Shown: positions 2,452 to 58,859 of the stretch, piece by piece
Position numbering within the stretch: position 1 is the stretch's first letter
How the letters are laid out: each line of letters opens with the position of its first letter
Assembly (NCBI GenBank): GCA_002197525.1
Contig: NFUN01000166.1
Coordinates: forward strand, 1 to 64,000
From: Acidobacteria subdivision 13 bacterium RH2 MAG17b
GTDB taxonomy: Bacteria; Acidobacteriota; Terriglobia; UBA7540
Direction of reading: 5' to 3'
DNA: 64,000 nucleotides
Notes under the pieces: model-generated
Seen by the model: the letters and a program-made list of their open reading frames with translations, nothing else
The model's database searches: none
What the model was told of the DNA's origin: nothing
Made by a program: the position numbers and the translations under genes

Positions 2452-5685
<3,234 letters not shown>

Positions 5686-5775
5686 TAAGAATCACTTTCG
5701 CGTGTTGAGGACACACTCTTGTTATTTTATGGGCGGTTCCGCCGGGAAGCAAGCCGCAAAGCCGCTCAGTTTGCC

Positions 5776-5835
5776 GTAGCGCCGACCTTCAGGTCGGCAT
5801 TTTGAAGGCTGTGCCGGGCTGAAGCCCGGCGCTAC
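5776..5835. repeat. double-hairpin intergenic repeat (GCCGACCTTCAGGTCGGC ... GCCGGGCTGAAGCCCGGC) bounded by GTAGC/GCTAC
   Basis: Two near-perfect hairpins read directly; related in layout to other copies in the window. Confidence 0.7.
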
Positions 5836-5975
5836 AAAAAAAGCCGTCACTATAATTTGTAATTCTCAATAAGCTTGGTGTCGCAACATCGGCAAAAATT
5901 GCCGATCCCTCCGGAGGACCTCAGCGGCCGTCCCCTTATTTCCATCCTCTCCCTCGCCCCCATCGGGGGAGAGAG

Positions 5976-6090
5976 TCTGTGTGAAAACTGCGGCTGTAGC
6001 GGCGATCTGCGATCGCCGGTCTCTGTTTTTCAATAGCCTCGGCGCTCCTAGAGCGCCGCACCCACTCAAAAACGGTAGTTTTCACACAGA
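5976..6090 (-). repeat. MITE-like family A, copy A1 (115 bp, TIR TCTGTGTGAAAACTrC)
   Basis: Terminal inverted repeats; its reverse complement aligns along its length with copy A2 at 12025-12139. Confidence 0.8.
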
Positions 6091-6229
6091 CTCGAGAGGG
6101 TGTCGCGCGTAGCGGGACAGGTGCGGGGCGACAAGACAACTCGCCCCTCTGAGGCGAAGCCAGGCGTGCTATAATTTGGATTAGCGCCGCAAGTTCAGCC
6201 TGCGCAATGGCGTTCGCGGAGAACAACTC

Positions 6230-7171
6230 ATGCCTATCGACTACTACGAGAAAGTTTGGCACAACGGAAGGTTTATTCCCTGGCAGGACGCCAACATCCA
6301 CGTAGGATCGCACGCGCTTCATTACGGCTCCTGCCTGTTTGAAGGCATCCGCTGCTACGAAACGCCGCAGGGCCCGGCCATTTTCCGGCTGAAGGAACAC
6401 ACCACCCGCCTGGTGAATTCCTGCAAGATTTACCGCATGGAACTCGACTATTCCTGCGATCAACTCCAGGAAGCCATGGTTGAGCTTATCCGCGTGAACC
6501 AGGCGCAGCACGCCTATATCCGCCCGGTGGCTTTTCGCGGCTACGGCGAAATCGGCGTGAATCCGCTCAAAAACCCCATCGAAATTTACATTCTTACCTG
6601 GCGCTGGGGGAAATACCTGGGCGATGAAGCGTTGAAGAACGGAATCGACGTTTGCGTTTCCTCCTGGAACCGGCTCGCTCCCAACACCATTCCCGCCATG
6701 GCCAAGGCGTCCGCGAATTACATGAATTCGCAACTCATCAAGATGGAAGCCGCCATCAACGGCTATACCGAGGGCATCGCGCTCGATAATTCGGGCAACG
6801 TCAGCGAGGGGAGCGGAGAAAACATTTTCATCATGCGCGATGGCAGGCTTTATACGCCTCCGCTCGCCTGCTCCGTGCTGCCCGGCATCACCCGCGATTC
6901 CGTCATCACGCTGGCTGAGGACATGGGTTTGGTTGTGGTCGAGCAGGCGATCCCGCGCGAGGCGCTCTACATCGCCGACGAGGTGTTCTTCACCGGCACG
7001 GCGGCGGAAATCACGCCCATCCGCTCGGTTGACCGCATCGTGATCGGCCGCGGCCAACCCGGCGCTATCACGCGCAAGCTGCAGGAAAAGTTGCTTTCCA
7101 TTGCTGCGGGCAAAGCGGACGATAAGTACGGCTGGCTCACCTCCTGCGCGCAGCCGGTGCCTGTGAAGTAG
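6230..7171 (+). CDS. ilvE: branched-chain amino acid aminotransferase
   Basis: Class IV aminotransferase: HYGSCLFEGIRCYET, EGSGENIFI, FFTGTAAEITPI. Confidence 0.93.
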   Translation: MPIDYYEKVWHNGRFIPWQDANIHVGSHALHYGSCLFEGIRCYETPQGPAIFRLKEHTTRLVNSCKIYRMELDYSCDQLQEAMVELIRVNQAQHAYIRPVAFRGYGEIGVNPLKNPIEIYILTWRWGKYLGDEALKNGIDVCVSSWNRLAPNTIPAMAKASANYMNSQLIKMEAAINGYTEGIALDNSGNVSEGSGENIFIMRDGRLYTPPLACSVLPGITRDSVITLAEDMGLVVVEQAIPREALYIADEVFFTGTAAEITPIRSVDRIVIGRGQPGAITRKLQEKLLSIAAGKADDKYGWLTSCAQPVPVK

Positions 7172-9025: not shown

Positions 9026-11872
9026 ATGACTTCAAATCAAATTCGCCAAACCTTTCTTGACTTCTTTGCCGCGCGCGGCCACCGCATCGTGCGCTCGTCC
9101 TCGCTCGTACCGGCCAACGACCCGACGTTGCTGTTTTCAAACGCTGGGATGAACCAGTTCAAGGACGTCTTCCTGGGCCGCGAAAAGCGCGACTACTCCC
9201 GCGCCTGCTCCTCGCAGAAATGCGTGCGCGCCGGAGGCAAACACAACGACCTCGAACAGGTGGGCCGCACTACGCGCCACCATACATTCTTCGAGATGCT
9301 CGGGAATTTCAGCTTTGGCGATTACTTCAAGAAGGAAGCTATCCCCTGGGCCTGGGAATTGATCACAGATGTCTACAAAATTCCGCGCGAGAAGCTCACC
9401 ATCACCGTTTTCCGCGAAGACGATGAAGCTGAGGAAATCTGGGCCAAGATTGTACCGCGTGAGCGCATCTTTCGCATGGATGAGAAGGACAACTTCTGGG
9501 CGATGGGCGATACCGGCCCGTGCGGCCCGTGCTCGGAAATCCATTACGACATGGGCGCGGCGGCGAGCGATCAGGGCCATACCGAGTGCAAGTTCCCTTG
9601 CGATTGCGGGCGTTATGTCGAACTGTGGAATCTGGTCTTCATGCAGTTTAACCGCATCTGTGATGCGTGCGAGCCCGGCACGCAGAAATGCATCAAGACG
9701 CATGACGAGCCTTTGCCTAAGCCTTCTGTGGACACCGGCGCCGGTCTGGAACGCCTGGCAGCAGTTCTGCAAGGCAAGCTCTCGAATTTCGATACCGACC
9801 TTTTCAAGCCGCTCATCGACGAAGCCGCCGAGCTTGCGAACGTCGAATACGGCGCAAATCACGAAACCGACGTTTCGCTGCGCATCATCGCCGACCACAG
9901 CCGCGCCGCCACGTTCTTGATTTCCGACGGCGTGCTCCCCTCAAATGAAGGCCGGGGTTACGTTCTGCGCCTTATCATCCGCCGCGCCTTATATCACGGC
10001 CAAACGCTCGGCCTGAACGATCCGTTCTTGTACAAAATGGCCGGCGAAGTCGTTGAGCTAATGAAAGGCGCATATCCGGAGTTAGTCGAGAGCGCGCAGC
10101 ATATCGCGAAGGCGATCAAGATTGAGGAGGAGCGCTACGAACAAACAATCGCGATCGCATTGAGGGAGCTCGACAAGGCTATGGTCGTTCTGGACTCGGG
10201 CGATGAGGTGACATTCAGGGAGTGGAAGGGCAATCCCGGCATACGAAGGGGTTGGCTGAGGCCGGTCCAGATCATTCCAGGGGCAGAGCATATGTATTCG
10301 GTCCCACCCAAAGGAGCCGCGTGGATTCGCGGCGAAGATGTGTTCCGACTGCACGACACCTTCGGACTACGGCCGGACTTCCTCGCAGACATAGTTAAGG
10401 ACTATGGGCTGACTATAGAGTGGCACGGTTACGAGATCGAGATGCGAGACCAGCGCGAGCGGGCGAGGGCTTCGTGGAAAGGTACCGCAAAGCAAGCCGC
10501 TAGTCCTACCTATCAAATGCTTGCCGGCGGGATGTTCAGTGTCCCGCATCCTGAAGGCGGGGTGGATATTCCGCCGCCGAGCCATTGGCGTACCGAATTC
10601 CTCGGTTACGGAGAAACCACGGCTTCCCAGTGCAAGGTCCTTGCCGTCGTCCGCGACGATCGAAGCAAGTATGAGTTGGGCGCCGGCGAGTACGGCGAGA
10701 TCATTCTCGACCACACGCCGTTTTACGCCGAAGCGGGCGGGCAAGTCGGTGATATTGGGCATTTCTATGCGCCGGGAAACGATCATGAGGTGGCGCACAT
10801 TACCGATACCTACCGGCCAGTGACGGGCGTGATCGCGCACAAGGCCATCGCGCGCGATACGGTGCGCGTCGGCGACGTGGTGGCGGCGGTGGTGGATGCA
10901 GAGCGCCGCGATGCGATCCGTCGCAATCACACGGCCACACATTTATTGCACGCGGCGCTGCGAACGACGCTTGGGACGCACGTGAAGCAGGCCGGATCGC
11001 TTGTGGCGCCCGACCGGCTACGTTTCGATTTCACCCATTTTGCCCCGCTCGGCGAGCAAGACGTGCTCGACATCGAGGATTTGGTGAATCAGCACGTGCT
11101 GAAGAATGAAGAAGTCGTTACCGTGGAAATGCCCCGCGAGGAGGCGCTGAACTCCGGCGCCATGGCGCTGTTCGGCGAAAAATATGGGGACAAAGTCCGC
11201 GTGGTCTCCGTCGCGGACGGCTCATTTTCCAAAGAGCTTTGTGGCGGCACGCACGTGCGGCGCACGGGTGACATTGGCCTGTTCAAGCTGATCTCCGAAA
11301 GCAGCGTGGCCGCAGGCACGCGCCGCATCGAAGCGCTCACGGGCGGCGGTGTGCTCGCGGAGCTGCGCCGCGCAAATGAAACTCTCTCCGGCCTTGCTGC
11401 AATTCTGCGCGCAAAGCCCGACGATCTGCTCGTGGCCGCCGAAAAGCTTGCCGAAGAAGAGAAAAGGCTGCGCAAGGAATTGGAGGCGGCGCAGATCAAG
11501 CGCGCCGTCGCTGCCGCCGGAAATCTGCTGGATCACGCGCAGGACGTTAAGGGCGTGCGCGTGGTCTCCGCGCGGGTCGAAGTTCCGGACCGCGCCGCCA
11601 TGCGCCAGATGGTGGATAACCTGCGCGGCAGGCTAGGCTCCGGCGTCATTGTGCTTGGCAGCGCGGAGGACGGCAAAGTGTCGCTCGTGGCTGCGGTTTC
11701 AAAAGACCTCACGGCCAAGCTCGACGCCGGTAAAATAGTCAAAGCCGCCGCCGTCTTGGTCGAAGGCTCGGGCGGCGGCCGCAAGGATTTGGCCGAAGCG
11801 GGCGGCAAAAATCCCGCCAGGCTGGCGGAAGCCCTGGAAGCCGTTCCCGGCATCGTCGAAGGGATGCTTTAA
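9026..11872 (+). CDS. alaS: alanyl-tRNA synthetase
   Basis: TFLDFFAARGHRIVRSSSLVPANDPTLLFSNAGMNQFKD; NHTATHLLHAALR; CGGTHVRRTGDIG; GGKNPARL. Confidence 0.97.
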   Translation: MTSNQIRQTFLDFFAARGHRIVRSSSLVPANDPTLLFSNAGMNQFKDVFLGREKRDYSRACSSQKCVRAGGKHNDLEQVGRTTRHHTFFEMLGNFSFGDYFKKEAIPWAWELITDVYKIPREKLTITVFREDDEAEEIWAKIVPRERIFRMDEKDNFWAMGDTGPCGPCSEIHYDMGAAASDQGHTECKFPCDCGRYVELWNLVFMQFNRICDACEPGTQKCIKTHDEPLPKPSVDTGAGLERLAAVLQGKLSNFDTDLFKPLIDEAAELANVEYGANHETDVSLRIIADHSRAATFLISDGVLPSNEGRGYVLRLIIRRALYHGQTLGLNDPFLYKMAGEVVELMKGAYPELVESAQHIAKAIKIEEERYEQTIAIALRELDKAMVVLDSGDEVTFREWKGNPGIRRGWLRPVQIIPGAEHMYSVPPKGAAWIRGEDVFRLHDTFGLRPDFLADIVKDYGLTIEWHGYEIEMRDQRERARASWKGTAKQAASPTYQMLAGGMFSVPHPEGGVDIPPPSHWRTEFLGYGETTASQCKVLAVVRDDRSKYELGAGEYGEIILDHTPFYAEAGGQVGDIGHFYAPGNDHEVAHITDTYRPVTGVIAHKAIARDTVRVGDVVAAVVDAERRDAIRRNHTATHLLHAALRTTLGTHVKQAGSLVAPDRLRFDFTHFAPLGEQDVLDIEDLVNQHVLKNEEVVTVEMPREEALNSGAMALFGEKYGDKVRVVSVADGSFSKELCGGTHVRRTGDIGLFKLISESSVAAGTRRIEALTGGGVLAELRRANETLSGLAAILRAKPDDLLVAAEKLAEEEKRLRKELEAAQIKRAVAAAGNLLDHAQDVKGVRVVSARVEVPDRAAMRQMVDNLRGRLGSGVIVLGSAEDGKVSLVAAVSKDLTAKLDAGKIVKAAAVLVEGSGGGRKDLAEAGGKNPARLAEALEAVPGIVEGML

Positions 11873-11874
11873 CT

Positions 11875-11952
11875 GGTGCGGCGCTGTCCCTTCGCTTCGC
11901 TCAGGGCAGGCTCTCAGCGCCGAAAGACGCCAGTGCGGACACCGGCGCCACA
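11875..11952. repeat. intergenic double-hairpin core repeat with internal CTTCGCTTCGCTCAGGGCAGG segment
   Basis: GGTGCGGCGCTGTC...CTCAGCGCCGAAAGACGCC...GCGGACACCGGCGCCACA; related to copies at 35863 and 38443. Confidence 0.55.
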
Positions 11953-12024
11953 GGCAAGGCGCGCGCAAGCACCTTGGAGTGCGGCAGCGTAGCTGCCGCT
12001 TTTGCTTGGCTCGTGGTTTGATAC

Positions 12025-12139
12025 TCTGTGTGAAAACTGCCGGTTTTAAGTTGGTGCGGCGCTCTATGAGCGCCGAAGCTATTGAAAAATCAAGACCGGC
12101 GGTCACAGACCGCCGCTACAACCGCAGTTTTCACACAGA
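12025..12139 (+). repeat. MITE-like family A, copy A2 (115 bp, perfect 16-bp TIR TCTGTGTGAAAACTGC)
   Basis: TIRs read directly; same length and aligned with A1. Confidence 0.85.
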
Positions 12140-12285
12140 TTATTCAAGCGCATATCGTGCGCGGCCAGACTACATGGCGAGGGCAAAGCTCATATATCTG
12201 CGCCGTGGAAGGCGCGACGGGGTGGCCACGGTGGGAGCTTTGCTCCCGCACTCCACATGAGGCCAGCCGCGCGGACCCATTTCCC

Positions 12286-12590: not shown

Positions 12591-13973
12591 ATGCGAAATG
12601 TGACCCCAAGTTGGCTTCGTATCCCCTCCTGGCGCAGCAGGTCTACCCTGTCAAAATCTCCCTGGCAGCGGCAGGCGGCAGCAGGCAAGTTCGCTCTGCT
12701 CCTGACCTCGTTCATCACGCTTCTGGCCGCTTCGCCCAGATTGGCTCAGGGCCAAATCCCACTCGACCCCGCGATCCCCGATGGCCTGGGCGTGAATATT
12801 CACTTCACCTCCCCGCAGCCTGGTGAAATGCAGGAACTGGCTGCTGCCGGTTTCCACTGGGTGCGCATGGATCTCGATTGGAGCGCGACCGAGCGCGTGA
12901 AGGGCCGCTACGATTTCTCCGCCTATGACCGCCTGCTGGCGGCGCTTGCTCCCTATCGCATCCGGCCCATCCTGATTCTCGACTACGCCAACAAGTTTTA
13001 CGATCAGGGGATTGCCCCGCACACGGATGCGGGCCGCGCGGCCTTCGCCCGCTGGGCTGCCGCCGCAGCGCTGCACTTCCACGGCCGCGGCGTGGTGTGG
13101 GAGATGTACAACGAGCCGAACTACGCCCGCTTTTGGCGGCCCGCGCCGAACGTCGAAGATTACATTCTGCTGGCGCTCGCCACGGGCGAAGCCATCCAGG
13201 AAGCTGATCCCGGCGCTACGATCATCGGTCCGGCCTGCGCGCTGATCGACCTGCGCTTTCTCGCCGCCTGTTTCCAGGCTGGATTGCTGAATTACTGGGC
13301 GGGCGTTTCCGTGCATCCCTACCGGCAGCGCGATCCGGAAACCGTGCTACCGGAGCTGCGCGCCGTCCGCTTTCTGATCGCGCGTTATGCGCCGCCGGGC
13401 AAGAAGATACCCGTAATCCCGAGCGAGTGGGGCTATTCCTCCACCTGGCGCTACGATCACATGGATGCGCAGACGCAGGCGAGAATGCTTGCGCGCGAGT
13501 GGCTTTTTGAGGCCGCAAGCGAAGTGCCGCTGACGATATGGTACGACTGGCAGGACGATGGCGCGGACCCGCGGGACCCCGAGGTGCACTTCGGCCTCGT
13601 GCGCTTCCCCTATCGGGGCGGTGCGCAGCCTGTGTTTGCGCCGAAGCCTGCGTACCTGGCGGCAAAGACTCTCAGCCACGCGCTTGCAGGCACCCGCTTC
13701 ACCCGGCGGCTGGCGGTGGGCGGCCCTGGCGATTATGTGCTGCTATTCACGCGCGGCAATGAAGCTCGCCTCGCTGCCTGGACCACATCCAGCACGCCTC
13801 ATGCGGTGCTCATTTCCCGCGCGCGCGGCCGCTTTCGCGTGACCGGCTTTGAAGGCGCCCGCCTGCGCAAGCTGCGCGCCCGCCGCAAAGGCTTGCGCCT
13901 GAAGATTTCGGCTGATCCCGTCTACGTTGAGCCGGAAAAGGCAACCGGACTCGCGCGCGTGGTGGCGCCATAG
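12591..13973 (+). CDS. secreted glycoside hydrolase-like protein (cellulase/GH5-39 TIM-barrel type)
   Basis: GVNIHFTSPQPGEMQELAAAGFHWVRMDLDWSATE, VVWEMYNEPN, PVIPSEWGYSS. Confidence 0.75.
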   Translation: MRNVTPSWLRIPSWRSRSTLSKSPWQRQAAAGKFALLLTSFITLLAASPRLAQGQIPLDPAIPDGLGVNIHFTSPQPGEMQELAAAGFHWVRMDLDWSATERVKGRYDFSAYDRLLAALAPYRIRPILILDYANKFYDQGIAPHTDAGRAAFARWAAAAALHFHGRGVVWEMYNEPNYARFWRPAPNVEDYILLALATGEAIQEADPGATIIGPACALIDLRFLAACFQAGLLNYWAGVSVHPYRQRDPETVLPELRAVRFLIARYAPPGKKIPVIPSEWGYSSTWRYDHMDAQTQARMLAREWLFEAASEVPLTIWYDWQDDGADPRDPEVHFGLVRFPYRGGAQPVFAPKPAYLAAKTLSHALAGTRFTRRLAVGGPGDYVLLFTRGNEARLAAWTTSSTPHAVLISRARGRFRVTGFEGARLRKLRARRKGLRLKISADPVYVEPEKATGLARVVAP

Positions 13974-20451: not shown

Positions 20452-20578
20452 AAATACAGAGTGACATAAGTCGGCGACGGCCATTTGCTGGTGTGGCGCT
20501 CTATGAGCGCCGAAATCCACCGGTCGCAGACCGGCGCTACAGCTTTCGAGCGTCGACGACTTATGTCGTTATGTATAG
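20452..20578 (+). repeat. MITE-like family B, copy B1 (127 bp, TIR around ACATAAGTCGnCGACG)
   Basis: Imperfect TIRs; aligned to the reverse complement of copy B2 at the same length. Confidence 0.8.
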
Positions 20579-22583: not shown

Positions 22584-22710
22584 CTATACATAACGACATA
22601 AATCGACGACGCTCCAGAATTGTAGCGGCGGTCTACGACCGGCGGATTTCGCCGCTCATAGAGCGGCGCTACAGCAAATGTCCGTCGCCGACTTATGTCG
22701 CTCTGTATAG
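22584..22710 (-). repeat. MITE-like family B, copy B2 (127 bp)
   Basis: CTATACATAACGACATAAATCGACGACG / CGTCGCCGACTTATGTCGCTCTGTATAG ends; inverted relative to B1. Confidence 0.85.
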
Positions 22711-35850: not shown

Positions 35851-35953
35851 AGCGGCATTTGCTGTAGCGGCGCTGTCCTCAGCGCCGAATAGCGCCGGTG
35901 GGGACAACGGCGCACCAGTAAAAGCCGTCACGATAATTTGTAAACCTCAATAA
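35851..35953. repeat. composite intergenic repeat: B-like inner segment + double-hairpin core + AAGCCGTCACkATAATTTGTAAwyCTCAATAA terminus
   Basis: CATTTGCTGTAGCG matches the interior of B2; terminal 32 nt match 5841-5872 at 29/32. Confidence 0.65.
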
Positions 35954-35992
35954 TAGGCATCGCTCAAGGATCGAGAGGCTGTCACACACTTC

Positions 35993-37591: not shown

Positions 37592-38410
37592 GTGCTTCAT
37601 TTTTCATCGCACTTCATCACGCTTGCGGCGCTGATCGCTTTGGGGTTTTTTCTGGGCATGCGCCATGCAACCGACGCAGATCACGTAGTTGCCGTCATGA
37701 CCATCGTCAGCAAACAGCGGAAAGTGAGGCCGGCTGCATGGATAGGAATTTTGTGGGGCCTCGGCCATTCGCTCACCATCTTCGCCGTGGGAGCGGCGAT
37801 CATATTTTTCAGCGTGGTCATTCCGCCCCGGCTCGGGCTGAGCATGGAACTGGCGGTTGCGCTCATGTTGATCCTTCTGGGCGTCTTGAACCTAAGCGGC
37901 TTCACACGCTGGGTAGCTGAGAATGTAACGCCGCCAGTCGTAGTCCATTCGCACCCCCACAGTCACGGAGACATCGTACACACTCACGCGCACGCACATT
38001 TCGGGCACGTCCATAAAACCGAAGCTGAGGAGCATGGCCCTGGCGCGTTTGGCCGGCTCTTGCAGCGCCTTGGTCTATACAACGTCTTGCGGCCGGTTGC
38101 AATCGGCATAGTACATGGCTTGGCTGGCTCTGCCGCAATCGCCCTGCTGGTGCTCACCACGATTCGCAATCCCTATTGGGCGATCGCCTACCTCGCGATT
38201 TTCGGCGTGGGCACGATGGCCGGTATGATGGTGATCACTGCAGCGATGGCAGCCTCCTTTAAGCTCACTAGTAACCGCTTCGCCCGGCTGGACCGTCACC
38301 TCGCGACCGCCGCAGGATTGATCAGCTTTGTTTTCGGTTGCTTCCTCGTATATCAGATCGGCTTCGTAGAAGGCCTGTTCACCAAGACAGTGCACTGGAC
38401 ACCGCATTAA
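37592..38410 (+). CDS. nickel/cobalt transporter (UreH/NiCoT/RcnA-like)
   Basis: LGFFLGMRHATDADHVVAV; GLGHSLTIFAVG; His-rich loop HSHPHSHGDIVHTHAHAHFGHVH; multiple TMs. Confidence 0.85.
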   Translation: MLHFSSHFITLAALIALGFFLGMRHATDADHVVAVMTIVSKQRKVRPAAWIGILWGLGHSLTIFAVGAAIIFFSVVIPPRLGLSMELAVALMLILLGVLNLSGFTRWVAENVTPPVVVHSHPHSHGDIVHTHAHAHFGHVHKTEAEEHGPGAFGRLLQRLGLYNVLRPVAIGIVHGLAGSAAIALLVLTTIRNPYWAIAYLAIFGVGTMAGMMVITAAMAASFKLTSNRFARLDRHLATAAGLISFVFGCFLVYQIGFVEGLFTKTVHWTPH

Positions 38411-38442
38411 TGAGTGTTACAAATCATGGTGACGGCCTTGCC

Positions 38443-38493
38443 TGTAGCGCCGGTGTCCCCACCAGCGTCTTTAGGCGCTGAGGACAGCGCCAC
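38443..38493. repeat. double-hairpin core repeat copy
   Basis: TGTAGCGCCGGTGTCCCCACCAGCGTCTTTAGGCGCTGAGGACAGCGCCAC matches the reverse complement of the 35863-35916 core. Confidence 0.65.
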
Positions 38494-57372: not shown

Positions 57373-58296
57373 CTATGAAAAATTTATCGCAACCAGTCCC
57401 GCCCCGGCTACCCTCCACTTCTCATTCTCTTTTACGAAAAACCGGACAACCCTGTACGCTCCTGCGGTTTTCCGGCCGGAAGCAACCGAGCCTTTCAGCG
57501 TCGTATGATCTGTGGCGATGGCGAAGTTTCCATATACCGCTCGCAATTTAAAATCGTCCGGGAAGGCACCGATATTGGTGCCGCGGCCGGCCTTTGAAAT
57601 CAAATCCAGCAGTTCTGATTTGCTGACCTCCCGTCCCCCTGGGAGGACCTCGAAAAATTGACCGGTCCACAATTGCTTCAAAACATCCAGCTTCTGGTTT
57701 CGCGCGGCCTCCAGCCACTTCTGGTCGATCTCCCAGAGCTGTTTCTCTAGACCAGTATGGCTTTCAGACGCTTCGCTTGCCGTGCTGGCCTGCGAAGTCG
57801 CACCCGCTGACGAAAGCAATCCAATGCGGCACAGTGCGGATTCAGCCGCTCTCCATTTCCCGTTCTCCTTGACGAAGACTCTCACGACCCGATATCCCCC
57901 CGTGATGTCGTGCCCATAGGCCTTGGTGCCTTTTTGGGTCATGTGATCGGTCGCTAGCGCCACGTTTCCATAAACAGCCCGCAGCTTGAAATCGTCCCGT
58001 GTGGATCCGGACCCGGGTCTGCGGGGAGCTTTAGCCAACATTTTCATCTGCTCCGCCTTGTTGACCACCTTCCCTCCAGGGAGGATCTCGACAAATTGGC
58101 CGGTCCACATCTGGTCCAAAAAAGCCATCTTCCTGTTCTGCACGGCGTCCAGCCACTGCTGGTCGAGCTTCCAGAGCTTTTGTTCTAGATTGGACCGGCT
58201 CGCGGCGCCTTCGCTCTTTTGGCCAGTGTCCTGAGCAATGGCGGTCATTGAAACGGCCAAAGCCGCCATCAAAACGAACACTCGAATAAATTTCAT
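57373..58296 (-). CDS. secreted protein with two NTF2-like/DUF4440-type repeats
   Basis: Signal MKFIRVFVLMAALAVSMTAIAQ; two copies of WxxDQxWL...DDFKLRAVYGN.A.ATDH.T.KG...YRVVR.FVKEN.KWR.A. Confidence 0.72.
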   Translation of the reverse strand: MKFIRVFVLMAALAVSMTAIAQDTGQKSEGAASRSNLEQKLWKLDQQWLDAVQNRKMAFLDQMWTGQFVEILPGGKVVNKAEQMKMLAKAPRRPGSGSTRDDFKLRAVYGNVALATDHMTQKGTKAYGHDITGGYRVVRVFVKENGKWRAAESALCRIGLLSSAGATSQASTASEASESHTGLEKQLWEIDQKWLEAARNQKLDVLKQLWTGQFFEVLPGGREVSKSELLDLISKAGRGTNIGAFPDDFKLRAVYGNFAIATDHTTLKGSVASGRKTAGAYRVVRFFVKENEKWRVAGAGLVAINFS

Positions 58297-58373
58297 CGTG
58301 AGCCTCCAGTAGGATGACTGCGTTCCACCAGCACTGGTTTTAACCCCAACGCTCATGGCCAAGGATAAGCGAA

Positions 58374-58859
58374 CTAAGGAGTGACGATCGGGCACAGCGC
58401 TGCTCCAGCGACCTTCCATTCACCATTTTCCTTCACGAACATGCGGAGTACCCTGTAGTCCCCGCTGAAATCGTGACCCTTGTACATGATTCCCTTCAAG
58501 GTTGTGCGATCGGTAGCCAAGGCGAAATTTCCGTATACAGCCCGCAGTTTGAAGTCATTCGGCGTTACAGCCCTCTTCTCCGGCGCCTTCCCGCGGAGAA
58601 CTCTTTCCAGTTGCTCCCTCTTGTCCGGAACCGTGCCGCCACTATTTATTTCAAAGAATTGGCTGGTCCACAATTTCTGCAGAACATCGACTCTCCTATT
58701 CGCCGCGGCATTCAGCCATTGTTGGTCGACTTTCCAGAGCTGTTTTTCGAGGCCGGTCCAGGCCTTGCTTTTTTCACTCTCTTTCCTGCCTGCTTGGCCG
58801 TAGGAGAGCGAGGAAATCGCCACGGCTGCTATTAACGTCAGAATCTGAACATGTCGCAT
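58374..58859 (-). CDS. secreted NTF2-like/DUF4440-type protein, paralog of the adjacent gene
   Basis: LWKVDQQWLNAAANRRVDVLQKLWTSQFFEINSGG...NDFKLRAVYGNFALATDRTTLKG. Confidence 0.72.
   Translation of the reverse strand: MRHVQILTLIAAVAISSLSYGQAGRKESEKSKAWTGLEKQLWKVDQQWLNAAANRRVDVLQKLWTSQFFEINSGGTVPDKREQLERVLRGKAPEKRAVTPNDFKLRAVYGNFALATDRTTLKGIMYKGHDFSGDYRVLRMFVKENGEWKVAGAALCPIVTP

Follow-up and report, generated by a model that had tools for sequence, protein, structure and literature searches.

A high-copy miniature element with IS1182-type ends and a REPIN interior in an acidobacterial draft genome

Boundaries of the repeat and its setting in the window

The window examined here is a 64-kb stretch of contig C75 from a draft genome of 2.8 Mb in 169 contigs (G000), and it holds two copies of a hairpin-rich intergenic repeat in opposite orientation. 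The question raised by this locus is what the repeat is and what, if anything, moves it. A preliminary description had read the copies, 115 bp each at 5976-6090 (minus strand) and 12025-12139 (plus strand), as a non-autonomous element or a structured-RNA module. In our sequence analyses, we found both copies at these positions, 89% identical from end to end. The matching terminal repeats described for the copies are present at all four ends, although the bounds fall short by 3 bp per side: in an alignment of 30 copies with their flanks, conservation extends to GAG...CTC, 3 bp beyond the earlier bounds at either end, and the full element is 121 bp long with the ends GAGTCTGTGTGAMAACTGC...GCAGTTKTCACACAGACTC (Table 1). 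Within the window, TCTGTGTGAAAACT has four matches, which lie at the four element ends and are all exact with up to two mismatches allowed (shuffle mean 0.20). The two GC hairpins attributed to each copy were likewise recovered in both, and no reading frame fits the element, as had been stated; the entries of the ORF table that overlap the two copies are mechanical. Copy 1 is flanked by two divergently oriented genes, secA on the minus strand (2452-5685) and a class IV aminotransferase gene on the plus strand (6230-7171). The neighbors of copy 2 are alaS (9026-11872) and an ORF without a Pfam match (12591-13973). The preliminary description had overlooked the target duplication, the IS1182 partner, the REPIN nature of the interior, and the outermost 3 bp.

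Table 1. Features of the element in the window, and same-ended insertion sequences in related genera
Feature	Location	Strand	Length	Basis
MITE copy 1, full element (GAG...CTC)	5973..6093	-	121 bp	flank alignment and target-site duplication
Target-site duplication GAGA, left of copy 1	5969..5972	.		read directly in sequence
Target-site duplication GAGA, right of copy 1	6094..6097	.		read directly in sequence
Terminal inverted repeat, copy 1, low-coordinate end	5973..5991	+		pattern matches, paired columns across copies
Terminal inverted repeat, copy 1, high-coordinate end	6075..6093	-		pattern matches, paired columns across copies
REPIN core, copy 1: GTAG foot, hairpins 6001-6017 and 6041-6057, inverted foot	5996..6062	.		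core also without shell in other genera
MITE copy 2, full element, tips degraded (TAC/TTA)	12022..12142	+	121 bp	flank alignment
Imperfect duplication at copy 2: TTGA on the left, paired with TTCA on the right (12143-12146)	12018..12021	.
REPIN core, copy 2: GGTG foot, hairpins 12058-12074 and 12098-12114, inverted GTAG foot	12053..12119	.
Intact REP-pair repeat, empty form of the sites filled at C111:13709 and C111:22297	5764..5839	-		identity across joined flanks
IS1182-type insertion sequence	G005:C54		1392 bp
IS1182-type insertion sequence	G006:C198		1399 bp
IS1182-type insertion sequence	G023:C117		1398 bp
IS1182-type insertion sequence	G005:C200		1389 bp
IS1182-type insertion sequence	G054:C21		1393 bp

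Copy number, insertion targets, and empty sites

We then counted element ends in the whole genome using the pattern AGTCTGTGTGNNAACNGC with at most 2 mismatches, which gave 203 matches compared with 2 for the same pattern read backwards. This corresponds to about 100 elements, some of which are one-ended or cut by contig ends, and carries the copy count that the preliminary description had proposed as a check well beyond the two copies of the window. Where the inner sequence was read, 131 of 137 ends run into the shell, GCGGCTG on the left or GCCGTTTTTGAGTTG on the right. Most complete copies measure 120-122 bp; variants of 139-142 bp have a longer hairpin arm, those of 157-158 bp a different REP pair, and those of 213, 224, and 387 bp further nested insertions. 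The ends are 19 bp long, with 92.8% of the terminal-repeat cells paired across 33 copies. Identity among copies is about 90%, a level which does not by itself demonstrate recent activity.

Exact 4-bp identity immediately outside both tips was found in 26 of the 45 copies with both flanks, against 3.3 expected from mismatched flanks, and exact 3-bp matches in none of the 45. An exact duplication is absent in the other 19, eight of which agree at three of the four positions. The consensus of the target is GGC[TNNA]GCC, and its mean fold is -10.9 kcal/mol compared with -6.3 kcal/mol for a control that is mostly coding DNA. That every target is a perfect hairpin was considered and rejected: only 4 of 34 sites have a perfectly paired stem, 4 bp or longer, that directly abuts the duplication (1.5% in the control), and the claim is therefore limited to a preference for GGC-TNNA-GCC, often but not always in the form of a hairpin. 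Other REP hairpins often serve as insertion targets, and two systems of miniature elements, MITE and REP, are thus nested in each other.

The comparison with empty sites, also proposed earlier, gave paralogous examples within the genome and element-free orthologous intervals in congeners. When the element and one TGAA are removed from C111:13709, the joined flanks match the hairpin repeat at window positions 5839-5764 at 75/75 positions, and the same removal at C111:22297 gives 76/76 across the junction with 5764-5839, so that the window itself contains an empty site for the family it carries. The four bases that are duplicated form the loop of this repeat (TTCA/TGAA, 5788-5791). For copy 1, joining the two flanks gives a sequence 84-85% identical over about 54 bp to uninterrupted terminator-like repeats elsewhere in the genome. 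Among the congeners, G001 and G003 have matching blocks 3' of alaS that are separated by about 140 bp, with no element between them; in G002 the interval is longer, yet also element-free. The interval upstream of the aminotransferase gene has no element in G002 and G003. These orthologous intervals are too diverged for an empty site to be placed to the base. Elsewhere in its genome, G002 carries the same composite with a diverged shell and the REPIN in the same place, and all seven full copies read have an exact 4-bp duplication; the union of REPIN and shell therefore predates the split of these species.

Same-ended insertion sequences and the REPIN interior

The end sequence was scanned across 39 genomes of the same taxonomic family, and pairs of ends about 1.4 kb apart proved to be insertion sequences with the same GAGTCTGTGTG ends (Table 1). 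The two transposases scanned, of 412 and 414 aa and 60% identical, score 322 and 330 bits against the IS1182-family model NF033551 of NCBIfam (cut-off 270) and contain DUF772 and DDE_Tnp_1 domains. Intact transposases thus occur between such ends in related genera, while that of G006:C198 has an internal stop. The targets of these relatives are of the same palindromic kind as those of the miniature element, with the duplication inside a palindrome in G023 (GCCC-TAAA//TAAA-GGGC) and G006 (GGGC-TATA//TATA-GGCC); the copy on G005:C54 has a 5-bp duplication (CCTGG/CCTGG), and no clear duplication borders the copy on G005:C200, which lies within the palindrome CTCTCC//GGAGAG. At its right end, the G006 insertion sequence agrees with the MITE at 28 of 32 positions, a match that continues past the 19-bp repeat. 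Being short and non-coding, with terminal inverted repeats, many dispersed copies, target-site duplications, empty sites, and ends common to an autonomous element, the repeat is a MITE, and the reading as a non-autonomous element stands.

The transposase with the same terminal repeats, which the preliminary description had suggested looking for, was accordingly found in related genera, but none is assembled in the own genome or in three congeners. None of the 137 ends examined in the own genome leads into an insertion sequence; the IS1182 profile gave two weak hits, 40.8 and 29.6 bits against the cut-off of 270, and the ORFs near the weak hit on C83 include no complete transposase. The family in this genus thus looks orphaned of its driver. 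The genomes are drafts with many contigs ending inside elements, so that loss of the transposase and its non-assembly look alike here. Same-ended MITEs without a REPIN occur in G005, G016, and G020; a further one, on G005:C84, carries a different REP pair, which is similar to the REPIN of its local target. Among loci L163-L173 of related genera (G005, G006, G012, G016, and G020), we also noticed further MITE families with IS1182-type ends and other interiors (99, 130, 132, and 195-198 bp), as well as a deleted insertion sequence of 406 bp.

The interior of the element consists of two inverted hairpins with GTAG or GGTG feet and a linker between them. It is a REPIN/BIME (two inverted GTAG-type REPs) and not debris of an insertion sequence, and the same core stands without the shell in other genera and in the own genome. 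Seven RAYT matches above the cut-off were found in the genome; the RAYTs seen with flanking REPs carry other REP types, and REPs of the core type lie only next to a RAYT remnant on C91. A partial RAYT gene of 57 bits, below the cut-off, was noted just past the window at the contig end (G000:C75:71315-71626).

Several other repeats were observed. In the window, a 125-bp inverted pair (20454-20578 and 22584-22708, 87% complementary) surrounds about 2 kb and represents REPINs without the MITE shell; another dispersed REP-pair repeat lies at 35869-35954, 38406-38491, and 11913-11960 and is partly common to 5827-5872; and a unit of about 107 nt recurs three times in direct orientation within 57650-58757, its copies being 73-77% alike and spaced 438 and 563 bp. 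A hairpin-rich repeat with ends like AGCTTGTCCAAATTA...TAATTTGGACA, absent from the window, lies within the REP hairpin in several copies of the MITE in G000 (C9:198, L089; C120:11864, L110; C121:12906, L112; C28:14614, L092), flanked by an apparent 11-bp duplication, GGTCTGTGACC, as a third layer of nesting.

Mobilization of the element and comparison with known systems

From these observations, the repeat is very probably a 121-bp MITE with IS1182-family ends, moved in trans by such a transposase, with the REPIN as its passenger body. We infer from the elements of other genera that the mover belongs to the IS1182 group; this DDE transposase, supplied in trans, would act on the GAG...CTC tips. 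The targets of insertion would be short palindromes rich in GC, in many cases the hairpins of REPs or terminators, whose middle four bases (TNNA) become duplicated. The REPIN, perhaps placed originally by a RAYT enzyme, would have become part of an ancestral MITE before the divergence of two or more species of the genus, and may since have been amplified as passenger DNA and now and then exchanged for other REP pairs. Conceivably, the whole unit could instead be an extended REPIN/BIME moved by RAYT, an IS200-like tyrosine transposase, with the outer repeats as just a flanking palindrome, as the REP pair with GTAG feet, the RAYT genes of the genome, and the REP dimers known within palindromes of other bacteria (PMC3733652) would allow. 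Nevertheless, the 4-bp duplications lie outside the outer repeats and not at the REP feet, the outer ends equal those of IS1182, same-ended units exist without the REPIN, and shell and REPIN are missing together at empty sites, all of which make movement of the unit by RAYT very unlikely. The structured-RNA module of the preliminary description, i.e., a conserved RNA or regulatory hairpin such as a terminator or mRNA stabilizer copied for its function, could draw on the very stable single-strand folds of the two copies (-65.2 and -62.9 kcal/mol, z = -8.5 and -9.9), on paired changes in the stem, and on the position of copy 1 between divergent genes. However, this fold is explained by the terminal repeats together with the REP pair, and the alternative gained no positive support: an Rfam search of the window returned two tRNAs only and no family matching either copy, the copies occupy unrelated sites with target duplications, and they are absent at the orthologous places in congeners. 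Six pairs are changed on both sides, mostly at one terminal-repeat position (column 13 with 109), which reflects the end variants AAAAC and ACAAC, often found on both arms. Such matched variants in the alignment are consistent with subfamilies or with a requirement that both ends match, and are no evidence for an RNA function, which we regard as highly improbable.

Some copies have clearly been remodeled. A different REP pair lies between the same shell halves at C81:59861, C46:11000, and C59:18764, and one-ended copies are fused to dispersed REPINs at C20:679, C28:17717, and C111:44670; recombination at REP boundaries may be the simplest cause of both. A spread of the family chiefly through homologous recombination or gene conversion among REPs, with no transposition involved, is nevertheless very improbable, because only insertion explains the exact 4-bp duplications and the clean empty sites at many unrelated loci, and recombination accounts for the remodeled minority only. 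The swapped interiors and the independent MITE of G005:C84, although also explained by recombination and chance capture, are compatible with a doubtful extension of the MITE model, in which the MITE-borne REPIN is still a live RAYT substrate. REP pairs would then be loaded into and exchanged within the IS1182 shell by RAYT while a second enzyme spreads the shell, often into REP hairpins; if true, this would be a self-feeding cycle of nesting between two unrelated transposase systems.

The MITE model can be set against known systems. MITEPye1 of Paracoccus yeei is an IS1182-type MITE which, like the present element, is non-coding and intergenic, with 18-bp IS1182-like ends, 4-bp direct repeats, and a long stem-loop fold; it has 1-3 chromosomal copies per genome compared with about 100 here, and neither a REPIN interior nor REP targeting is mentioned in the accessible part of its description (PMC11578231). 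IS1272 and TnSha1, of the same transposase family, likewise target stem-loops or inverted repeats and show little sequence specificity in doing so (PMC5678879, PMC4923244). However, IS1272 replaces or deletes its target hairpin without duplication (PMC5678879, PMC4923244), a mode ruled out here, where the hairpin arms are kept on both sides and the central 4 bp is duplicated. GTAG-REP dimers in Anabaena variabilis and CGTC dimers in Halothiobacillus neapolitanus likewise lie inside longer, conserved palindromic shells; those shells are tied to no transposase (PMC3733652), whereas the shell described here is an IS1182-type MITE with target duplications. REP hairpins are known as targets of insertion sequences, going by the part of that work available (PMC1525189); here, the inserting element carries REPs itself, so that the nesting is mutual. 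IS1182 MITEs, REP dimers in palindromes, and REPs as targets are thus each known, and the combination is new: a high-copy IS1182 MITE with a REPIN body and frequent REPIN targets was not found in the literature searched. The model accounts for a major group of the intergenic repeats in this genus, a high-copy IS1182-type MITE without an assembled driver, and provides a duplication-making counterpart to the hairpin-replacing IS1272 within one transposase family. In essence, it traces REP dimers inside palindromes, of the kind known from other phyla, to a concrete origin, and offers a simple system in which miniature elements of the DDE and RAYT types serve each other as vehicle and target.
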